Assembly: GCA_900757695.1 (NCBI GenBank)
Contig: CAAEOU010000096.1
Location: 1 to 6,042, forward strand
Length of the DNA stretch: 6,042 nucleotides
Direction: 5' to 3'
Origin: an uncultured Oscillospiraceae bacterium
GTDB taxonomy: Bacteria > Bacillota_A > Clostridia > Oscillospirales > Oscillospiraceae
Position 1 is the stretch's first letter; every line of letters begins with the position of its first letter. The notes under the pieces are model-generated. The model saw only the letters and a program-made list of their open reading frames with translations. It did no database searches and was not told the DNA's origin. Position numbers and translations under genes: made by a program. This document shows positions 1 to 6,042 of the stretch, piece after piece.

Positions 1-26
1 GGCAAAACGGTTTGTCGATCTGTGAT

Positions 27-33
27 GGGAGGA
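27..33 (+). promoter_or_regulatory. Shine-Dalgarno site of the AraC gene
   Basis: GGGAGGA four bases before the ATG at 37. It decides the start in favour of 37 over the in-frame GTG at 22 and ATG at 25. The 25-27 ATG overlaps the edge of this site, so it cannot use it. Confidence 0.65.
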
Positions 34-36
34 ACT

Positions 37-1251
37 ATGCTATATTTGTGCGCTGACCCTTCGGCGACCCAGCCCGCCCCACTGGGCCAATGTCTGGACA
101 CTATCCTGTTGAGTCCGGACGCCGGAGCCTGCTTTGACTATCTGGAAGAACAGGGCCTACTTCTGGGCAACGGCGGCTTTCTTTTGACCCTGCTATGTCC
201 CCGGGAGGGTCTGGTTCTGCCGGGCCAGGAGAGCTTCTGTGCCGATGTGGCCAGGGCTTTTCGGACACATCTTCCCCATCGACAGTCCCTGGTATCTCTC
301 ACTGGCGGAGATGTGTACGGTCTGCTGGCCTTTCCGCGGCTGTGCCTTGAAAAGCCCCTCTCTTCCGAGGCCGCCCAAGGATTAAATAAAGGCCTAATCT
401 CCCTGTATCAGTCTCTCTCCGCCGAGTCTCCCCTGCTGACACTGCAAAGCCCGGTGTTCTATGGAGAACAGACCATCTGGCAGGCGGCCCTGGCTCTTCG
501 GCGGGCGAAGGCCTACCACGCCTTTCGCCAGACTCGGACGGGGCTAATCCCGGTCTCCCTGGAGCCAGAGGACGGTCTATCCCAAGCTCTGGCGGATTAT
601 CAGGCTCTGGCAGGCCAGGTGGTCTCGGAGTTGGGCGGTCCCCACGCCGACACAAAAAAGCTGTCCGTTCACATTCTGGAGGAGATTCTGGCCCACAGTA
701 TCGCGTCTCTGGATTCCGTAGGCCAGCAATACCGACTGTTCCTACACTGCTTCTCCCAGACGCTGATCCGAACCGCCTCGATTAGCACGAGCGCTCTCCA
801 GGAAAACCAGCACCTATCCCACACCGTTTTGACCACTGACCGGGCGCTTCTGGATGCTCTGCGGATGCTGCTGGACCAAGTATACGGCTCTATGCACCAC
901 CGGCTGGACCACGAGATCCGGGGCAAAATGCTAGAGATCCGCCAGTACATCGACGAGAACATTCCAAACTATGAGCTGTCCATCCGCTTTTTGAGTGAGC
1001 GCTTCCAGTTAACTCCTGCTCGACTCAATGCTAACTTCAAAAAGTATTATGGAGAACAGCTCAGCCGCTATCTCCGCATGGCACGGTTCCGTTATGCCCA
1101 GGGGCTGATCCTGGCCCACGAGGACTGGACCATGACCCAGGTTGCCGCCGCGGCGGGCTACAGCGATATCTCCACCATGTACCGGGTCTTTCAGGTAGAA
1201 GCTGGTGTTACACCAGCCCGGCTACGGTCGGCTCAAGAAACAGGGGAATAA
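37..1251 (+). CDS. AraC-family transcriptional regulator, long N-terminal domain
   Basis: A 404-residue cytoplasmic DNA-binding regulator. The C-terminal ~105 residues (from about residue 298) form a typical AraC/XylS double helix-turn-helix. The first HTH includes LSIRFLSERFQLTPARLNANFKKYYG-like spacing, and the second carries the family signature around GYSDISTMYRVFQVEAG followed by VTPARLR. The N-terminal ~290 residues have no membrane segment or signal peptide and I do not recognise the domain. The layout resembles YesN-like regulators with a poorly conserved ligand or signal domain. I chose ATG at 37 because GGGAGGA lies just upstream (27-33). In-frame GTG at 22 and ATG at 25 are possible but lack their own ribosome binding site. 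The gene looks complete, and its HTH ends where family members normally end. It faces the recombinase operon and probably belongs to the flanking chromosome rather than the element (inference). Its target genes cannot be told from this window. Confidence 0.9.
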   Translation: MLYLCADPSATQPAPLGQCLDTILLSPDAGACFDYLEEQGLLLGNGGFLLTLLCPREGLVLPGQESFCADVARAFRTHLPHRQSLVSLTGGDVYGLLAFPRLCLEKPLSSEAAQGLNKGLISLYQSLSAESPLLTLQSPVFYGEQTIWQAALALRRAKAYHAFRQTRTGLIPVSLEPEDGLSQALADYQALAGQVVSELGGPHADTKKLSVHILEEILAHSIASLDSVGQQYRLFLHCFSQTLIRTASISTSALQENQHLSHTVLTTDRALLDALRMLLDQVYGSMHHRLDHEIRGKMLEIRQYIDENIPNYELSIRFLSERFQLTPARLNANFKKYYGEQLSRYLRMARFRYAQGLILAHEDWTMTQVAAAAGYSDISTMYRVFQVEAGVTPARLRSAQETGE

Positions 1252-1437: not shown

Positions 1438-3066
1438 TTAGTGTGCTATTGTTTGCTCGATTTGACCGCCGCCGCGTAAAAACACGATGATTTTTTCTGC
1501 AGATACGACCCTGACCGTATCTACCAATTGACGGATAAGCCCCTCATTCCATTCGGTAATTTCGGCAGATGCTTCCTCCATCGCTGTGGCGGCATATGTT
1601 ATACGTTGAACTGCCTGGTTGTTGGTTTTGCGTTGTTCTTGGATGAAGGACCGTTTTTCTTTCAGTGCAGCCACTTCGTCCATGATGGCCTTGAGCTGAG
1701 ATGTATAGGCAGAAGCATCCTCTGCACGGGCAGCCTGCGCAACCAGTTCCCGTGTTTGATCATTTAGTTCCTCCAGCCGGCGCTCAATATCCGCAAGGCT
1801 CATACTCTCACCAGGGATCGGAGCCAGTTCCAATTCCATTGCTCCTGTGATTTCCCGAATCAGCTCTCGCTTATCGCTCATAGCTGAATTGATGGCAGAC
1901 AAAATCGCTTGATGAAGCTGCTTCTCATCCAGTGTTGGCGAGTTATGACAGTATTTTTTCCCGTAGTCCAGTCGACTGACGCAGCGCCATACCACCCGTT
2001 TTTTCCCGTTACTCACCCAGGTGCAGCGACGGTAAAGTGTACCGCATTCTCCGCAGACCAGCCGTTCAGACAGAGCGTATTTGCTGGCGTAGCAGCTTTT
2101 TCCTGTGGGTGCATATTTTTTTGAAGGACTTTTCGCCGAATTACGCCGTGCAAGTTCCGCTTGCGCCGCTTGGAATGTATCTCGGTCAATGATCCCTTCG
2201 TGATGATCCTGAATCAAGTACATAGGAAACTGTCCTGTATTTTTGATTACCTTTCTGCTGATACAGTCACTGATGAATGTTTTTTGGAGCAGTACATCTC
2301 CACAGTATTTCTCATTGGTCAGGATACTCCGTATGGCTGTGATGCTCCATCCTTTTTTACCATACACATTGGGGATCCCCTCAGTTTCCAGCGTGTTCTT
2401 TATCATGCGGAGGCTGTCACCCAGAAGATACTGACGGAAGATCTTTTTTACAACCTCCGCCTGCTGCGGGATGATCATGGGCTGCCCATCCGGGCCTTTC
2501 TCAAAGGCATACAGGTGGGTGTATTGTATAGATACCCTCCCCTCCCGCATAGCCTGCCGCTTGCCCCATCGGACATTGGCGCTGATACTCTCGCTCTCTG
2601 CCTGAGCAAAGGCACCCAGCATTGTAATCAGCAGTTCACTGTCTGCCTCCAGCGTATTGATGTTCTCCTTCTCAAATATCACTGCGATCCCCAGCTCCCG
2701 CAGGGCTCGAATGTAGTTGAGACAATCTACGGTGTTTCGGGCAAAGCGGGAGATAGACTTCGTCAGGATGATGTCGATCTTTTTCTGCTTACAGAGATGA
2801 ATCATTCTTAGAAACTCCGGACGTTTTCGGGCAGAGGTACCTGTGATTCCTTCATCGGCAAAAATCCCAGCCATGGTCCATTCCCGGTTGGACATGATCT
2901 TATCGGTGTAGTAGGTACGTTGGGCCTCGTAACTGCTGAGCTGTTCTTCTTCATCGGTAGACACACGGCAGTATGCAGCAACGCGCTTCTGGCGTTGAAC
3001 AGTCTTATTCTGGGCCATCTCAGGTTTGGCCGGAATGACAATGACCTTGGCTGGAGAATCCTTCAT
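1438..3066 (-). CDS. Large serine recombinase (third of the triplet)
   Basis: A 542-residue site-specific DNA recombinase that would cut and rejoin attachment sites through a covalent 5'-phosphoserine link. After a ~28-residue N-terminal extension comes the resolvase-type catalytic domain (about 28-175) with nucleophile Ser36 in RVST, Arg34, the ADEGITGTS loop (70-78) and the SISRFARNT motif (104-112). The recombinase DNA-binding domain follows (about 180-300). A zinc ribbon has Cys338, Cys341, Cys362 and Cys373. A coiled-coil stretch covers about 425-480, and a C-terminal beta segment ends near residue 540. All key residues of an active enzyme are present and the length is normal for the family. 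ATG at 3066 is chosen because AGGTGA lies six bases upstream. It is the last gene of the operon and is followed at once by a terminator. It is clearly related to the first recombinase in the catalytic domain but differs more in the DNA-binding part, so it is not a recent copy. Confidence 0.95.
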   Translation of the reverse strand: MKDSPAKVIVIPAKPEMAQNKTVQRQKRVAAYCRVSTDEEEQLSSYEAQRTYYTDKIMSNREWTMAGIFADEGITGTSARKRPEFLRMIHLCKQKKIDIILTKSISRFARNTVDCLNYIRALRELGIAVIFEKENINTLEADSELLITMLGAFAQAESESISANVRWGKRQAMREGRVSIQYTHLYAFEKGPDGQPMIIPQQAEVVKKIFRQYLLGDSLRMIKNTLETEGIPNVYGKKGWSITAIRSILTNEKYCGDVLLQKTFISDCISRKVIKNTGQFPMYLIQDHHEGIIDRDTFQAAQAELARRNSAKSPSKKYAPTGKSCYASKYALSERLVCGECGTLYRRCTWVSNGKKRVVWRCVSRLDYGKKYCHNSPTLDEKQLHQAILSAINSAMSDKRELIREITGAMELELAPIPGESMSLADIERRLEELNDQTRELVAQAARAEDASAYTSQLKAIMDEVAALKEKRSFIQEQRKTNNQAVQRITYAATAMEEASAEITEWNEGLIRQLVDTVRVVSAEKIIVFLRGGGQIEQTIAH

Positions 3067-3072
3067 AAGAAA

Positions 3073-3078
3073 TCACCT
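3073..3078 (-). promoter_or_regulatory. Shine-Dalgarno site overlapping the upstream stop codon
   Basis: On the minus strand AGGTGA is placed six bases before the ATG at 3066. Its last three bases, TGA, are also the stop codon of the 245-residue middle recombinase. Ribosomes ending the middle gene therefore finish on the binding site of the third, which favours coupled translation. Confidence 0.7.
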
Positions 3079-3810
3079 CGCTATCATTTGATGATTTTTT
3101 AACTCCAGGCAAATTGCGCCGTTCCCTTGGATATGAATCGCTGCCACAGTGCTTTTCAGCAGTTCTGCATCCAGTGTTTCCATTGGCTCTGATGCGGCAA
3201 AGATCCGCTTGAGCCGTTCTGTCTCATATTCCGCCGAACCAATCTGGTCATACCGGGCGGCGGCAAGTTTGAAAACCAAATCACGGGCTGAATCTTCGTC
3301 AACAGGCTGTATTGCCAGGATTTTATCGAGTTGTGCCTTGAACTCGACACATGAATCATTGGCCACTTGGACTGGCTGGATTTGCAGCTTTTCCGGTCTC
3401 CCAATCAGGCAATTTAGCAGATCCAGCACCTGTTGTTCTGTGGAGTGCGTAGCCGTGTGGCCACTGAGTTGGCGAATGACCTTTTGCGCTGCTGTTTTCT
3501 GAATGGGAACTTGCCTGGAGGTTCGTATCCGCAGCGCTGCTTCCATATCCGCCTGCGAGATGATTGCGGGGTATTCATTTTCGCCGGCATACCGCTGATC
3601 AGCCAAAATACGGGCAACCATGTTCTTGTTCCAGGCCTTATCCTGGTCATAGGATATGTCCTGCGCACATAACGAGTTGACAAGGGCGCTGAAAGAAGCA
3701 CCCGCAATGTACTGCTGGAAAATAAATCGAACAGTCTCGGCCTCCTGGGGATGGATCACGATACGGCCCATCTCCATACGATAGCCAAAAGGCTGCTTTC
3801 GGTTGCCCAT
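3073..3810 (-). CDS. Catalytic-domain-less serine recombinase homologue (middle of the triplet)
   Basis: A 245-residue protein that starts straight in the recombinase DNA-binding domain: PFGYRMEMGRIVIHPQEAE at residues 7-25, then a pattern with IFQQYIAG (30-37) and ARILADQRYAGENEYP (66-81). A long helical region covers about 120-205. The end, around LLKSTVAAIHIQGNGAICLELKN (217-239), matches the C-terminal beta segment of the two full-length neighbours. There is no resolvase domain, no nucleophilic serine motif and no CxxC zinc ribbon. The frame has no internal stop. Its ATG overlaps the stop of the first recombinase (TGATG at 3812-3808), with AGAGGA about a dozen bases upstream. These points argue for a kept, translated gene rather than a decayed fragment. 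Inference: a DNA-binding or oligomerisation partner, or directionality factor, for the two active recombinases. It cannot itself do serine recombination. Confidence 0.85.
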   Translation of the reverse strand: MGNRKQPFGYRMEMGRIVIHPQEAETVRFIFQQYIAGASFSALVNSLCAQDISYDQDKAWNKNMVARILADQRYAGENEYPAIISQADMEAALRIRTSRQVPIQKTAAQKVIRQLSGHTATHSTEQQVLDLLNCLIGRPEKLQIQPVQVANDSCVEFKAQLDKILAIQPVDEDSARDLVFKLAAARYDQIGSAEYETERLKRIFAASEPMETLDAELLKSTVAAIHIQGNGAICLELKNHQMIAR

Positions 3811-5399
3811 CAGCGCACCGTCCTCTCTATCGTCTCGGCCAGTTCCAGTCCATTTTTCAGGCGGAACCGGATACGGGTATTGCTGTCCACAATGATTTTG
3901 TCTACCAGTTCATCGAAGATCACTGCATCAAAGGATTCCAGAATGTCTGGCCCGACTTCAAGGACTTCCAGCAGATCCTGCGTCTGCGTCAAGGTCCCGT
4001 CGCCATTCTGATCCAGCAAGCGGCCCTTTTGACGTTTGGCTTCACGAAGCTGCTGTGCCAGCTCATTGCTCTGATAAATAAAAATGTCAGGATCAATGAG
4101 GCCCTGCTGCTTGAGCTGGGTCAGCATTTGATTCTGACTGGACAAATCTGATATTTTCTTGTTGAGTTCAATGACATCCTCGCTCCACAGCATACGGCGG
4201 CTGCGGATGGTCTGGATGTGAGTGATCATTTCTTCGAGGATGGCTGACCCCTGGTGCTTCAACTTATAGTAGAGGCGAAGAAATGCAGCGCAAAGTTCTT
4301 TTTCTGCAACCGGCTTCACGGAACACAAGTTTTTGCTTTCATCATGCTTCGTGCAAACCCAGTAATTCGTTTGATTCACAGACTTATATCTATAAATCGC
4401 ACCACAGCATCCGCAGTATACTTTTCCAGACAAAGGCTTTTCAGCCTGTGCTTTCACTGCCTGCTGCAGCAGTCGTTTCTTTCTAAGCATCTGCGCTTGA
4501 TCAAACATCTCTTGCGGGATAATCGGGATATTGCTTCCTTCCACAAAATACATCTGCCGCTCTCCTCGGTTCCTTTTCTTTGCAGTCGGAAAGGTGTCCG
4601 TGGTATATCGCTTCTGCAGAAGGGCATTCCCAGCATATCTCTCATTTTTCAAGATATAATCAACGATTTCCCGACGCCATTCTCTCTGCAAAACGCCATG
4701 CTCATTTAACGAAGCCGCTATTTCTCTGGAATTCTTTCCATTCAAATACGCGACATAAATACCTCGTATGACATCCGCCTCATCCTGATGGATTTCAAGT
4801 TTTCCCTCCACCAGGTCAAATCCCAGCGGAGCATTGTATGTGTTGAAGGTTCCATCCTGCATCCGCTTCTGGTAGCTCCAGCGCATATTTCCCGAGATGC
4901 TTTCGCTTTCCGCCTGCGCAAAGGACGCAAACAGGGCGGTCATCATTTCGCCAGACATGACTGCGGTGTCAATATTCTCCTTTTCAAATTGAACACTGAC
5001 ACCCAGCAGCTTCAGTTCCCGAAGAGCCTCCAAACACTCCTTTGTGTTCCGGGCAAACCGTGAGATGGATTTGACCAGGATTCGGTCAACGAGCCCCCGT
5101 CTGCAGTCAGCCAAGAGCCGCTGAAAATCTCCTCTTTTTTCTGCCGAAGTTCCTGTGATGCCCTCATCCGCATATATGTCCACCATGCTCCAGTTCTCCT
5201 TGCCGGAGATCAAGGTGGTATAGTAGCGGTTCTGGGCGGCAAAGGAGTTGAGCTGATCCTCGGAGGCGGAACTGACACGGGCATAGGCTGCAACCCGCAG
5301 CTTGGCATTCTGATGCGCTTTGGTGGGTTCAATCGTGATGACCCGGTACTGTTTATTCTGCAGTGCCAGGCTTCCATCTGTCTGCGCGCGTTTTTTCAT
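3810..5399 (-). CDS. Large serine recombinase (first of the triplet)
   Basis: A 529-residue site-specific recombinase with all parts of the large serine family. An N-terminal extension (1-34) is followed by the resolvase catalytic domain (about 35-185) with Arg41, nucleophile Ser43 in RVSS, ADEGITGTS (77-85) and SISRFARNT (111-119). The recombinase DNA-binding domain starts at PLGF (191-194) and runs to about 300. The zinc ribbon has Cys329, Cys332, Cys349 and Cys359. A helical coiled-coil stretch covers about 405-465, and the C-terminal beta segment (about 497-525) contains RFRLKNGLEL. ATG at 5399 has AGGAGG ten bases upstream (5410-5415). The stop overlaps the start of the middle gene. It is predicted to catalyse integration and excision, alone or with the third recombinase. 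Both enzymes share the N-terminal extension style and catalytic motifs. Confidence 0.95.
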   Translation of the reverse strand: MKKRAQTDGSLALQNKQYRVITIEPTKAHQNAKLRVAAYARVSSASEDQLNSFAAQNRYYTTLISGKENWSMVDIYADEGITGTSAEKRGDFQRLLADCRRGLVDRILVKSISRFARNTKECLEALRELKLLGVSVQFEKENIDTAVMSGEMMTALFASFAQAESESISGNMRWSYQKRMQDGTFNTYNAPLGFDLVEGKLEIHQDEADVIRGIYVAYLNGKNSREIAASLNEHGVLQREWRREIVDYILKNERYAGNALLQKRYTTDTFPTAKKRNRGERQMYFVEGSNIPIIPQEMFDQAQMLRKKRLLQQAVKAQAEKPLSGKVYCGCCGAIYRYKSVNQTNYWVCTKHDESKNLCSVKPVAEKELCAAFLRLYYKLKHQGSAILEEMITHIQTIRSRRMLWSEDVIELNKKISDLSSQNQMLTQLKQQGLIDPDIFIYQSNELAQQLREAKRQKGRLLDQNGDGTLTQTQDLLEVLEVGPDILESFDAVIFDELVDKIIVDSNTRIRFRLKNGLELAETIERTVR

Positions 5400-5477: not shown

Positions 5478-5627
5478 TCATGGGGATAAAATGATATCTG
5501 CACCAATTTTCGCAGCAATGCGGGATGCGATTTTTCGGGCTTCCCGCTGTGTGCAAGTTCCGTTTTGAACCAAAAAACGCAGCAGATTGACAATCCCGCA
5601 GTAGTCAATATTTACGTTCTGTCCCAT
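5478..5627 (-). CDS. Small helical protein, SHOCT-like, 49 residues
   Basis: A 49-residue frame from ATG at 5627 to TGA at 5480-5478, overlapping the helicase end by 16 bases. The sequence has two probable helices: IVNLLRFLVQNG (12-23), a turn, then TQREARKIASRIAAKIGADI (26-45). This helix-turn-helix hairpin with the pattern 'short loop, T, acidic/basic helix, KIA.RIA..GADII' resembles small SHOCT-like proteins often found beside recombinase genes on Firmicutes mobile elements; that link rests on memory of the pattern, not a search. A possible Shine-Dalgarno, AAGGAG, lies about 14 bases upstream, which is rather far; coupling to helicase translation may help. It is preferred over the competing 70-residue frame across 5396-5608 because its composition is far more protein-like. 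It could be a small regulator of the recombinase genes, but the function is unknown. Confidence 0.65.
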   Translation of the reverse strand: MGQNVNIDYCGIVNLLRFLVQNGTCTQREARKIASRIAAKIGADIILSP

Positions 5628-6042
5628 TCTGGCTGTTTCAACTCCTTGAAATACCGATCTGGCTTGTGGTCCAGCATAAATTGCTCCACATCTTCCAGAA
5701 GAGACGTCTGTGGCATCTCGGGCAGAGCATCCAGCACAGCATCGTGATACCGCTCTCCGTCCCCGGCACGGTCATCCAGAATTGCCACCACACAGGTGTC
5801 TGTCTCAGTACGGATTGCCCGTCCAAAGCCCTGGCGGAGCTTGATCTGCATCTCGGGGACGATGACAGACTGGATGAAGTCATGAACAGACTCGTAGTGC
5901 GCGAGCTGTTTTTCCCGCAGCTCATCGGGAAACGCAAAGGGCAGTCTGGGGATCACCAACAGAGACACACCGTCTCCCGGAAAGTCCATGCCCTCCCAGG
6001 CAGCTCCTGTTGCCAGAAGAATCGACCCAGGGTGCGCCCGAA
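5612..6042 (-). CDS. DinG/XPD-like ATP-dependent DNA helicase, C-terminal part (runs off the window)
   Basis: The open frame enters from the right edge and ends with TAA at 5614-5612. About 142 codons are visible. The first residues carry helicase motif V of the DinG/XPD branch of superfamily 2: ILLATGAAWEGMDFPGDG, then a strand and IPRLPFAFP. Further on comes motif VI, QGFGRAIRTETDTCVVAILD, with the arginine pair expected to contact ATP, followed by DDRAG. The ATP-binding Walker motifs and any iron-sulfur cluster cysteines would lie outside the window. The ATG at 5989 is internal, not the start, because the motif continues upstream of it in frame. Family members unwind DNA 5' to 3'. On mobile elements such helicases may assist replication or transfer (inference). 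Its end overlaps the start of the 49-residue gene, consistent with one operon. Confidence 0.85.
   Translation of the reverse strand, partial: RAHPGSILLATGAAWEGMDFPGDGVSLLVIPRLPFAFPDELREKQLAHYESVHDFIQSVIVPEMQIKLRQGFGRAIRTETDTCVVAILDDRAGDGERYHDAVLDALPEMPQTSLLEDVEQFMLDHKPDRYFKELKQPEWDRT

Follow-up and report, generated by a model that had tools for sequence, protein, structure and literature searches.

The window, by which we mean the whole stretch of 6,042 nucleotides that was analysed, carries on its minus strand three adjacent genes related to large serine recombinases (LSRs), here named A, M and B, from a gut-bacterial mobile element. Gene A (positions 3810..5399) encodes an LSR of 529 residues and gene B (1438..3066) one of 542 residues; their ORFs and the Pfam matches give both proteins a Resolvase, a Recombinase and a zinc ribbon domain. 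By eye, the serine and arginine motifs are retained in both, from which we infer that A and B are active recombinases. Between them lies gene M (3073..3810), read directly as an ORF and recovered in Pfam and family searches, which encodes a recombinase homologue of 245 residues devoid of a catalytic domain. The initial annotation had described M as locked in place on both sides, and this was borne out: A and M share a TGATG overlap (3808..3812, minus strand), with the A stop codon at 3812-3810 and the M ATG at 3810-3808, and the stop codon of M (TGA, 3075-3073) falls inside the Shine-Dalgarno sequence of B (3071..3080, minus strand), within GAGGTGATT, the ATG of B being at 3066. On the A side, a small minus-strand ORF separates the module from the C-terminal part of a DinG-like helicase (5612-6040, minus strand). 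Just after B, an inverted repeat with a T-run (1381-1431) looks like a terminator by eye, and an AraC-family gene (22-1251, plus strand) faces the module convergently; this regulator could be either cargo or a host gene.

The M protein begins at its recombinase domain (RD). Recombinase (PF07508) was the sole Pfam family above the cut-off (residues 21-94, E 8e-13, 48.9 bits vs a cut-off of 21.1), and Pfam gave no match in M to the resolvase domain PF00239 or to the zinc ribbon PF13408, which are the two domains that M had been proposed to lack. Profile comparisons aligned M colinearly with B (E 8e-28) and with the A profile, where it spans columns 208-544 (E 1.5e-34), and these alignments end in a beta segment shared with both neighbours, as had been noticed from the sequence. 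Pfam, structure and profile comparison place the recombinase domain, less its beta-hairpin stretch, in residues 1-100 (3511..3810, minus strand); residues 101-245 (3076..3510, minus strand) comprise a helical region and the terminal beta segment common to A, B and M, and this tail is colinear with the C-terminal half of LSRs according to both profiles and structure. Read off the profile alignments, the beta-hairpin stretch and most of the coiled coil are missing from M. An AF2 model of M (pLDDT 86.7, pTM 0.47) matched LSR-DNA complexes, and residues 3-102 superposed on 9dxd with an rmsd of 2.3 over 100 residues. Alignments over the whole length gave a large rmsd, which together with the pTM of 0.47 makes the domain arrangement uncertain.

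We then looked at the family to which M belongs. The protein search returned 1603 proteins similar to M at E ≤ 1e-3; it admitted 0.55 to 1.75 times the query length (135-429 aa), so that full recombinases were excluded from the candidates. All of the 120 homologues listed among these 1603 were 244-251 aa long and carried PF07508 only. Contig scans without a length limit covered 58 genome loci and 2 viral ones, and in none of these 60 loci did the M frame contain a resolvase domain. Homologues mostly endowed with a catalytic domain, which would mark M as a decaying fragment, were thus absent (0/120 listed within the 135-429 aa filter, 0/60 scanned loci). The order A-M-B, with a full A upstream (at least 500 aa) and a full B downstream, was found at 35 of the 60 loci in addition to the window; this count includes L056, whose M frame of 171 aa was dropped from the codon alignments, and treats as a miss L026, whose M frame of 433 aa has no resolvase domain and is not in the triplet tables. 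At the other loci contig ends cut the module or a neighbour gene is broken. M therefore mostly lies between two full recombinases, though not always, and its length is likewise constant in the clade of the window but ranges from 137 to 326 aa in the wider family. Many distant M proteins of at least 273 aa keep the zinc ribbon or its CxxC pairs, which the clade of the window is without. Four loci (L032 10734-11216, L035 10840-11382, L037 3427-3930 and L038 10846-11406) encode between M and B an extra protein of 160-186 aa consisting of a resolvase domain only, with A or V at the catalytic serine position in 4/4 cases, as judged by eye.

In the set analysed, this integration module of mobile elements was found mostly in Clostridia. 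We sampled 398 genomes of the phylum around one known carrier. Counting that carrier, 13 genomes have M at E ≤ 6e-34, and a version of 137-163 aa occurs in five others. Within the 3.2 kb inspected at each of these five short-M loci, both neighbours could be recognised as LSRs in four cases; L094 showed only an A fragment. We also looked at 19 regions from the class of the L049 genome, chosen for two recombinase matches close together: five had a short M, one a long M (290 aa), two a middle gene of 170 aa, and 11 (L138-L148) carried CcrA/CcrB-like pairs of 430-444 and 522-532 aa with no middle gene. A named example of the module is Ruminococcus albus 7 pRUMAL02, with the three genes in a row. 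At the short-type loci the middle protein is a recombinase domain only and the WNKNMVARIL motif of M is not kept. The 170-aa middle genes, near-identical to each other (L136 3983-4495 and L137 3898-4410), have no recombinase domain and an end that looks LSR-tail-like by eye, a truncation that is the reverse of that of the short middle proteins. Since the middle gene can be RD only (137-163 aa, or 138-140 aa in phages) or, by eye, tail only (170 aa), no single domain of M is needed in all systems.

The question was then whether M is under selection or is the decaying remnant of a third recombinase. NG86 estimates over 22 pairs with dS < 1.3, which are not independent as 15 of them come from six related loci, gave dN/dS values of 0.13-0.53 for M (median 0.18, well below 1), 0-0.18 for B and 0.08-0.36 for A. 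By a length threshold, 52 of 56 scorable M frames were full-length (45/51 for A and 43/50 for B), including the M of L033 (240 aa), which passes this length test although its match looks frame-shifted. In a tree of recombinase domains the 56 M rows formed one clade (support 97/86; 97% of 200 bootstrap trees). With 124 rows, this tree has few columns (127), its deep forks are uncertain and two of the M rows in it are long; alignment A2 has 59 rows, 15 of which were excluded. CcrA-like proteins made one group in this tree and CcrB-like proteins another, and A and B needed two changes each. Most simply, M descended from a large serine recombinase by a single loss of the N-terminal catalytic domain. 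Decay would fit with domain losses that differ in extent between lineages and with M being the fastest-evolving of the three proteins (mean p-distance 0.63 vs 0.49 and 0.44), but dN/dS near 0.18, the integrity of the frames, a length that is constant within the clade and a single clade across deep divergence led us to reject decay as very improbable. The same observations uphold the earlier proposal that selection keeps M. Protein distances over 34 loci and the window were correlated (A-M 0.87, M-B 0.87, A-B 0.94), as they should be if the genes travel together.

Conservation within M is uneven. Residues 60-69, WNKNMVARIL (3604..3633, minus strand; located from alignments), lie inside a stretch with a mean majority frequency of 0.81 in M vs 0.63 in A and 0.69 in B at the same place, and the remainder of M is the least conserved (0.47); the recognition-helix region is thus the most conserved stretch of the protein. 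This pattern bears on the idea that M is a dominant-negative protein or an autoregulator, which would occupy half-sites or the promoter and damp A and B. A DNA-binding domain without a catalytic domain, made from the same operon as A and B, would suit such a role. Binding to core half-sites, however, would need the specificity of A or B, whereas M is an old clade apart from A and B, in which the recognition-helix region is independently conserved, and we regard regulation of this kind as quite improbable.

The A protein behaved differently from its partners. At six loci (L005, L007, L009, L008, L010 and L014) the B proteins are 97-100% and the M proteins 92-98% identical, and the A proteins are 96-100% identical in the catalytic domain and 90-100% in the coiled coil and tail. 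L005 is from Anaerofilum sp. An201, and L007 comes from a complete genome. These six A proteins nevertheless fall into three types, between which identity drops to 41-44% in the recombinase domain and 33-47% in the zinc ribbon segment. The borders of the exchange are sharp, at residues ~178 and ~400; in the A gene of the window these borders, taken from relatives, correspond approximately to 4200..4868 (minus strand). Over the 34 loci and the window, 51 of the 75 A pairs with a catalytic-domain identity of at least 0.8 had a recombinase-domain identity of at most 0.55, vs 5 of 212 B pairs under those thresholds; L001/L047 is a separate case in this analysis. Binning error is an unlikely cause, since five of the six records are not labelled metagenome assemblies. 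A thus looks like an exchangeable target reader, B like a constant enzyme and M like a constant non-catalytic subunit.

We searched for the ends of the elements in the relatives of the window. Near-identical elements cease to be homologous downstream of B at GGCATCTATAGTGTTGCGATGTTCCA. This end motif gave 12 matches, one of which, a minus-strand match in L041 with 4 mismatches, was left out, and a strong hairpin follows the right end in 9 of the 11 ends (absent at L015 and L033). Right ends of other lineages also have CCA near a terminator-like hairpin, weakly so in L036; none was seen at L001, L047, L035, L037, L023 and L025, where homology merely stops. We considered terminators as the target and rejected this, as, given the left ends, the hairpin is most simply the terminator of the tRNA gene, displaced by the element. 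The left-end scan of 18 genomes gave 11 places in 9 genomes: tRNA-Leu(CAA) four times, tRNA-Ala(CGC) three times, tRNA-Lys(TTT), tmRNA and two places without a called RNA gene. Five more places came from two other lineages: Leu(CAA), Leu(GAG), Ser(GGA), Arg(CCG) and a tRNA-like site that was not called. In all, a called tRNA or tmRNA gene with its 3' CCA precedes the left end in 13 of 16 cases; L190 and L210 have a T-arm and CCA without a called tRNA, and L188 has no tRNA. A GGTTC(G/A)A..CC T-arm stands at a fixed distance before 15 of the 16 left ends and CCA before 16/16, CCA having been part of the search pattern for the first 11.

Both ends were found on one contig for L004 and L007 (both tRNA-Leu CAA), L043 (tRNA-Arg), L036 (tRNA-Leu GAG) and L009, whose left end is 87 kb off and without a tRNA; in the other genomes left and right ends are on different contigs. 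The ends of L043, L036 and L009 presumably belong to one element each. The L007 element measures ~51.7 kb and that of L004 10.4 kb. From B to the right end, L007 (12401-15031) and L160 (12296-14616) carry calcineurin-like phosphoesterase, DUF1016 and KilA-N genes, with two ArdA-like genes towards the left end, and the 20 proteins scanned, which are only part of the elements, included no relaxase or conjugation gene. A strict rule of one A for one tRNA is disfavoured by genome G850: it has two A proteins 93% alike in the recombinase domain, and its left ends are found at Ser(GGA), at Leu(GAG) and at a tRNA-like site that was not called, in a round where 15 regions were used out of 18 pattern matches (3 left out).

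Inside the left end of L181-L191, the first 60 bases form a strong hairpin whose arms vary between clades yet remain complementary; this element-borne hairpin behind the tRNA is plausibly a replacement terminator for it. The left arm also has boxes at +18, +41 and +95. Further in, at +127/128 from the left end, an inverted copy of the T-arm was present in 12 of 15 readable cases (L181-L191 and L207), 11 of which are homologous within one clade and one of which comes from a second lineage. The three other readable cases, from a third lineage, have by eye a copy with one mismatch. The T-arm and CCA in front of the left ends and this inverted copy in the elements led us to consider a three-part integrase in which M would read the shared T-arm, A the individual tRNA end and B the element's own ends, M being proposed for the T-arm as the constant part left without an assigned site. 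We hold this for rather unlikely. If it were true, one kind of module could colonise many tRNA genes.

In the window itself, the end motif of the relatives was not found with up to 4 mismatches, and a weak likeness to it near 1288-1313, noticed by eye, was set aside. The nearest relatives with known ends are ~49-52% identical to the window in M and ~78% in B. As no element end was recognised within the window, what we say of the behaviour of its element is extended from these relatives.

Modules of two or three LSRs are already known (streptococcal triplets, the Phi1207.3 tandem and ccrAB). The serine integrase triplets of streptococcal ICEs consist of external, middle and internal integrases that cluster by position; their targets are mutT, traG or hsdM, with repeats of 2-8 bp, and each of the 42 streptococcal integrases in that study has a Resolvase domain (Ambroset 2016, PMC4701971). 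They resemble A-M-B in having three adjacent recombinase genes in fixed positions, but differ from it in that M has no Resolvase domain and in that the relatives of the window use tRNA and tmRNA ends. SCCmec CcrA/CcrB and the Phi1207.3 tandem are, as here, two adjacent LSRs acting as one module, but have no middle gene and other target genes. At the right end of prophage Phi1207.3, orf56 (412 aa) and orf57 (521 aa) overlap by one base (PMC4260502). The CcrAB genes adjoin on one strand; A and B share a strand too, but with M between them. In the NCBIfam equivalogs, A (134 bits) and B (116 bits) stay far below the CcrB cut-off of 900, and M (34.5) below the CcrA cut-off of 700. CcrA is reportedly, in work by Misiura in 2013, needed for one half-site only and so a specificity subunit beside a core enzyme, and the apparent specificity role of A resembles it; the exchange of the A segment is the one observation that suggests a division of half-sites between A and B as in CcrAB.

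Related layouts are those of the phages Javan105, Javan191, Erysipelothrix phi1605 and Ruminococcus NatCom_38182, in the order integrase, small 'recombinase' or 'DNA invertase', recombinase, with a middle protein of 138-140 aa vs 245 aa for M. Other loci with this short layout fall in the M clade, in a tree without the four phage proteins themselves. Phage LSRs need a recombination directionality factor (RDF) for excision, and RDFs are small non-catalytic proteins adjoining the integrase, as M is. M could then bind the coiled coils of A and B as RDFs do and switch the module to excision; its tail region is still of LSR type and includes the terminal beta segment, and M would be co-produced with A and B, which it overlaps or abuts. 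On the other hand, known RDFs are unrelated to recombinases, constant co-production with the integrases would leave no regulated excision, and short middle proteins have no tail. We consider a directionality factor unlikely.

We favour, with reasonable though not strong confidence, a reading of M as a third, non-catalytic subunit of a conserved A-M-B module, kept for DNA binding or assembly. What places M there is that A is exchangeable, that B and M are constant and that the recognition-helix region is the most conserved part of M. Its fast evolution, the differing reductions of the middle gene elsewhere, the uncertain domain arrangement and the 11 two-LSR loci lacking it count against this. 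In an LSR tetramer every half-site requires a cutting subunit, so that M cannot simply replace A or B. A and B would cut and rejoin DNA, and M would most likely use its recombinase domain to bind accessory positions of the attachment sites and its LSR-type tail to contact A and B; the synapse would then form on the right sites only. M would thus bind DNA, touch both recombinases and gate their assembly, and the element of the window would behave like its relatives.

In a search of open-licence papers, with most subscription papers outside it, we found no description of a third member without a catalytic domain. Single LSRs are in wide use as genome tools, and little is known of how two or three LSRs divide the task. 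The A-M-B module offers a natural and widespread system with a non-cutting subunit, and one in which natural exchange swaps the DNA-binding segment of a recombinase as a single block with two fixed borders. Two questions become directly testable: how the target choice of an LSR changes, and what a subunit without a catalytic domain adds.
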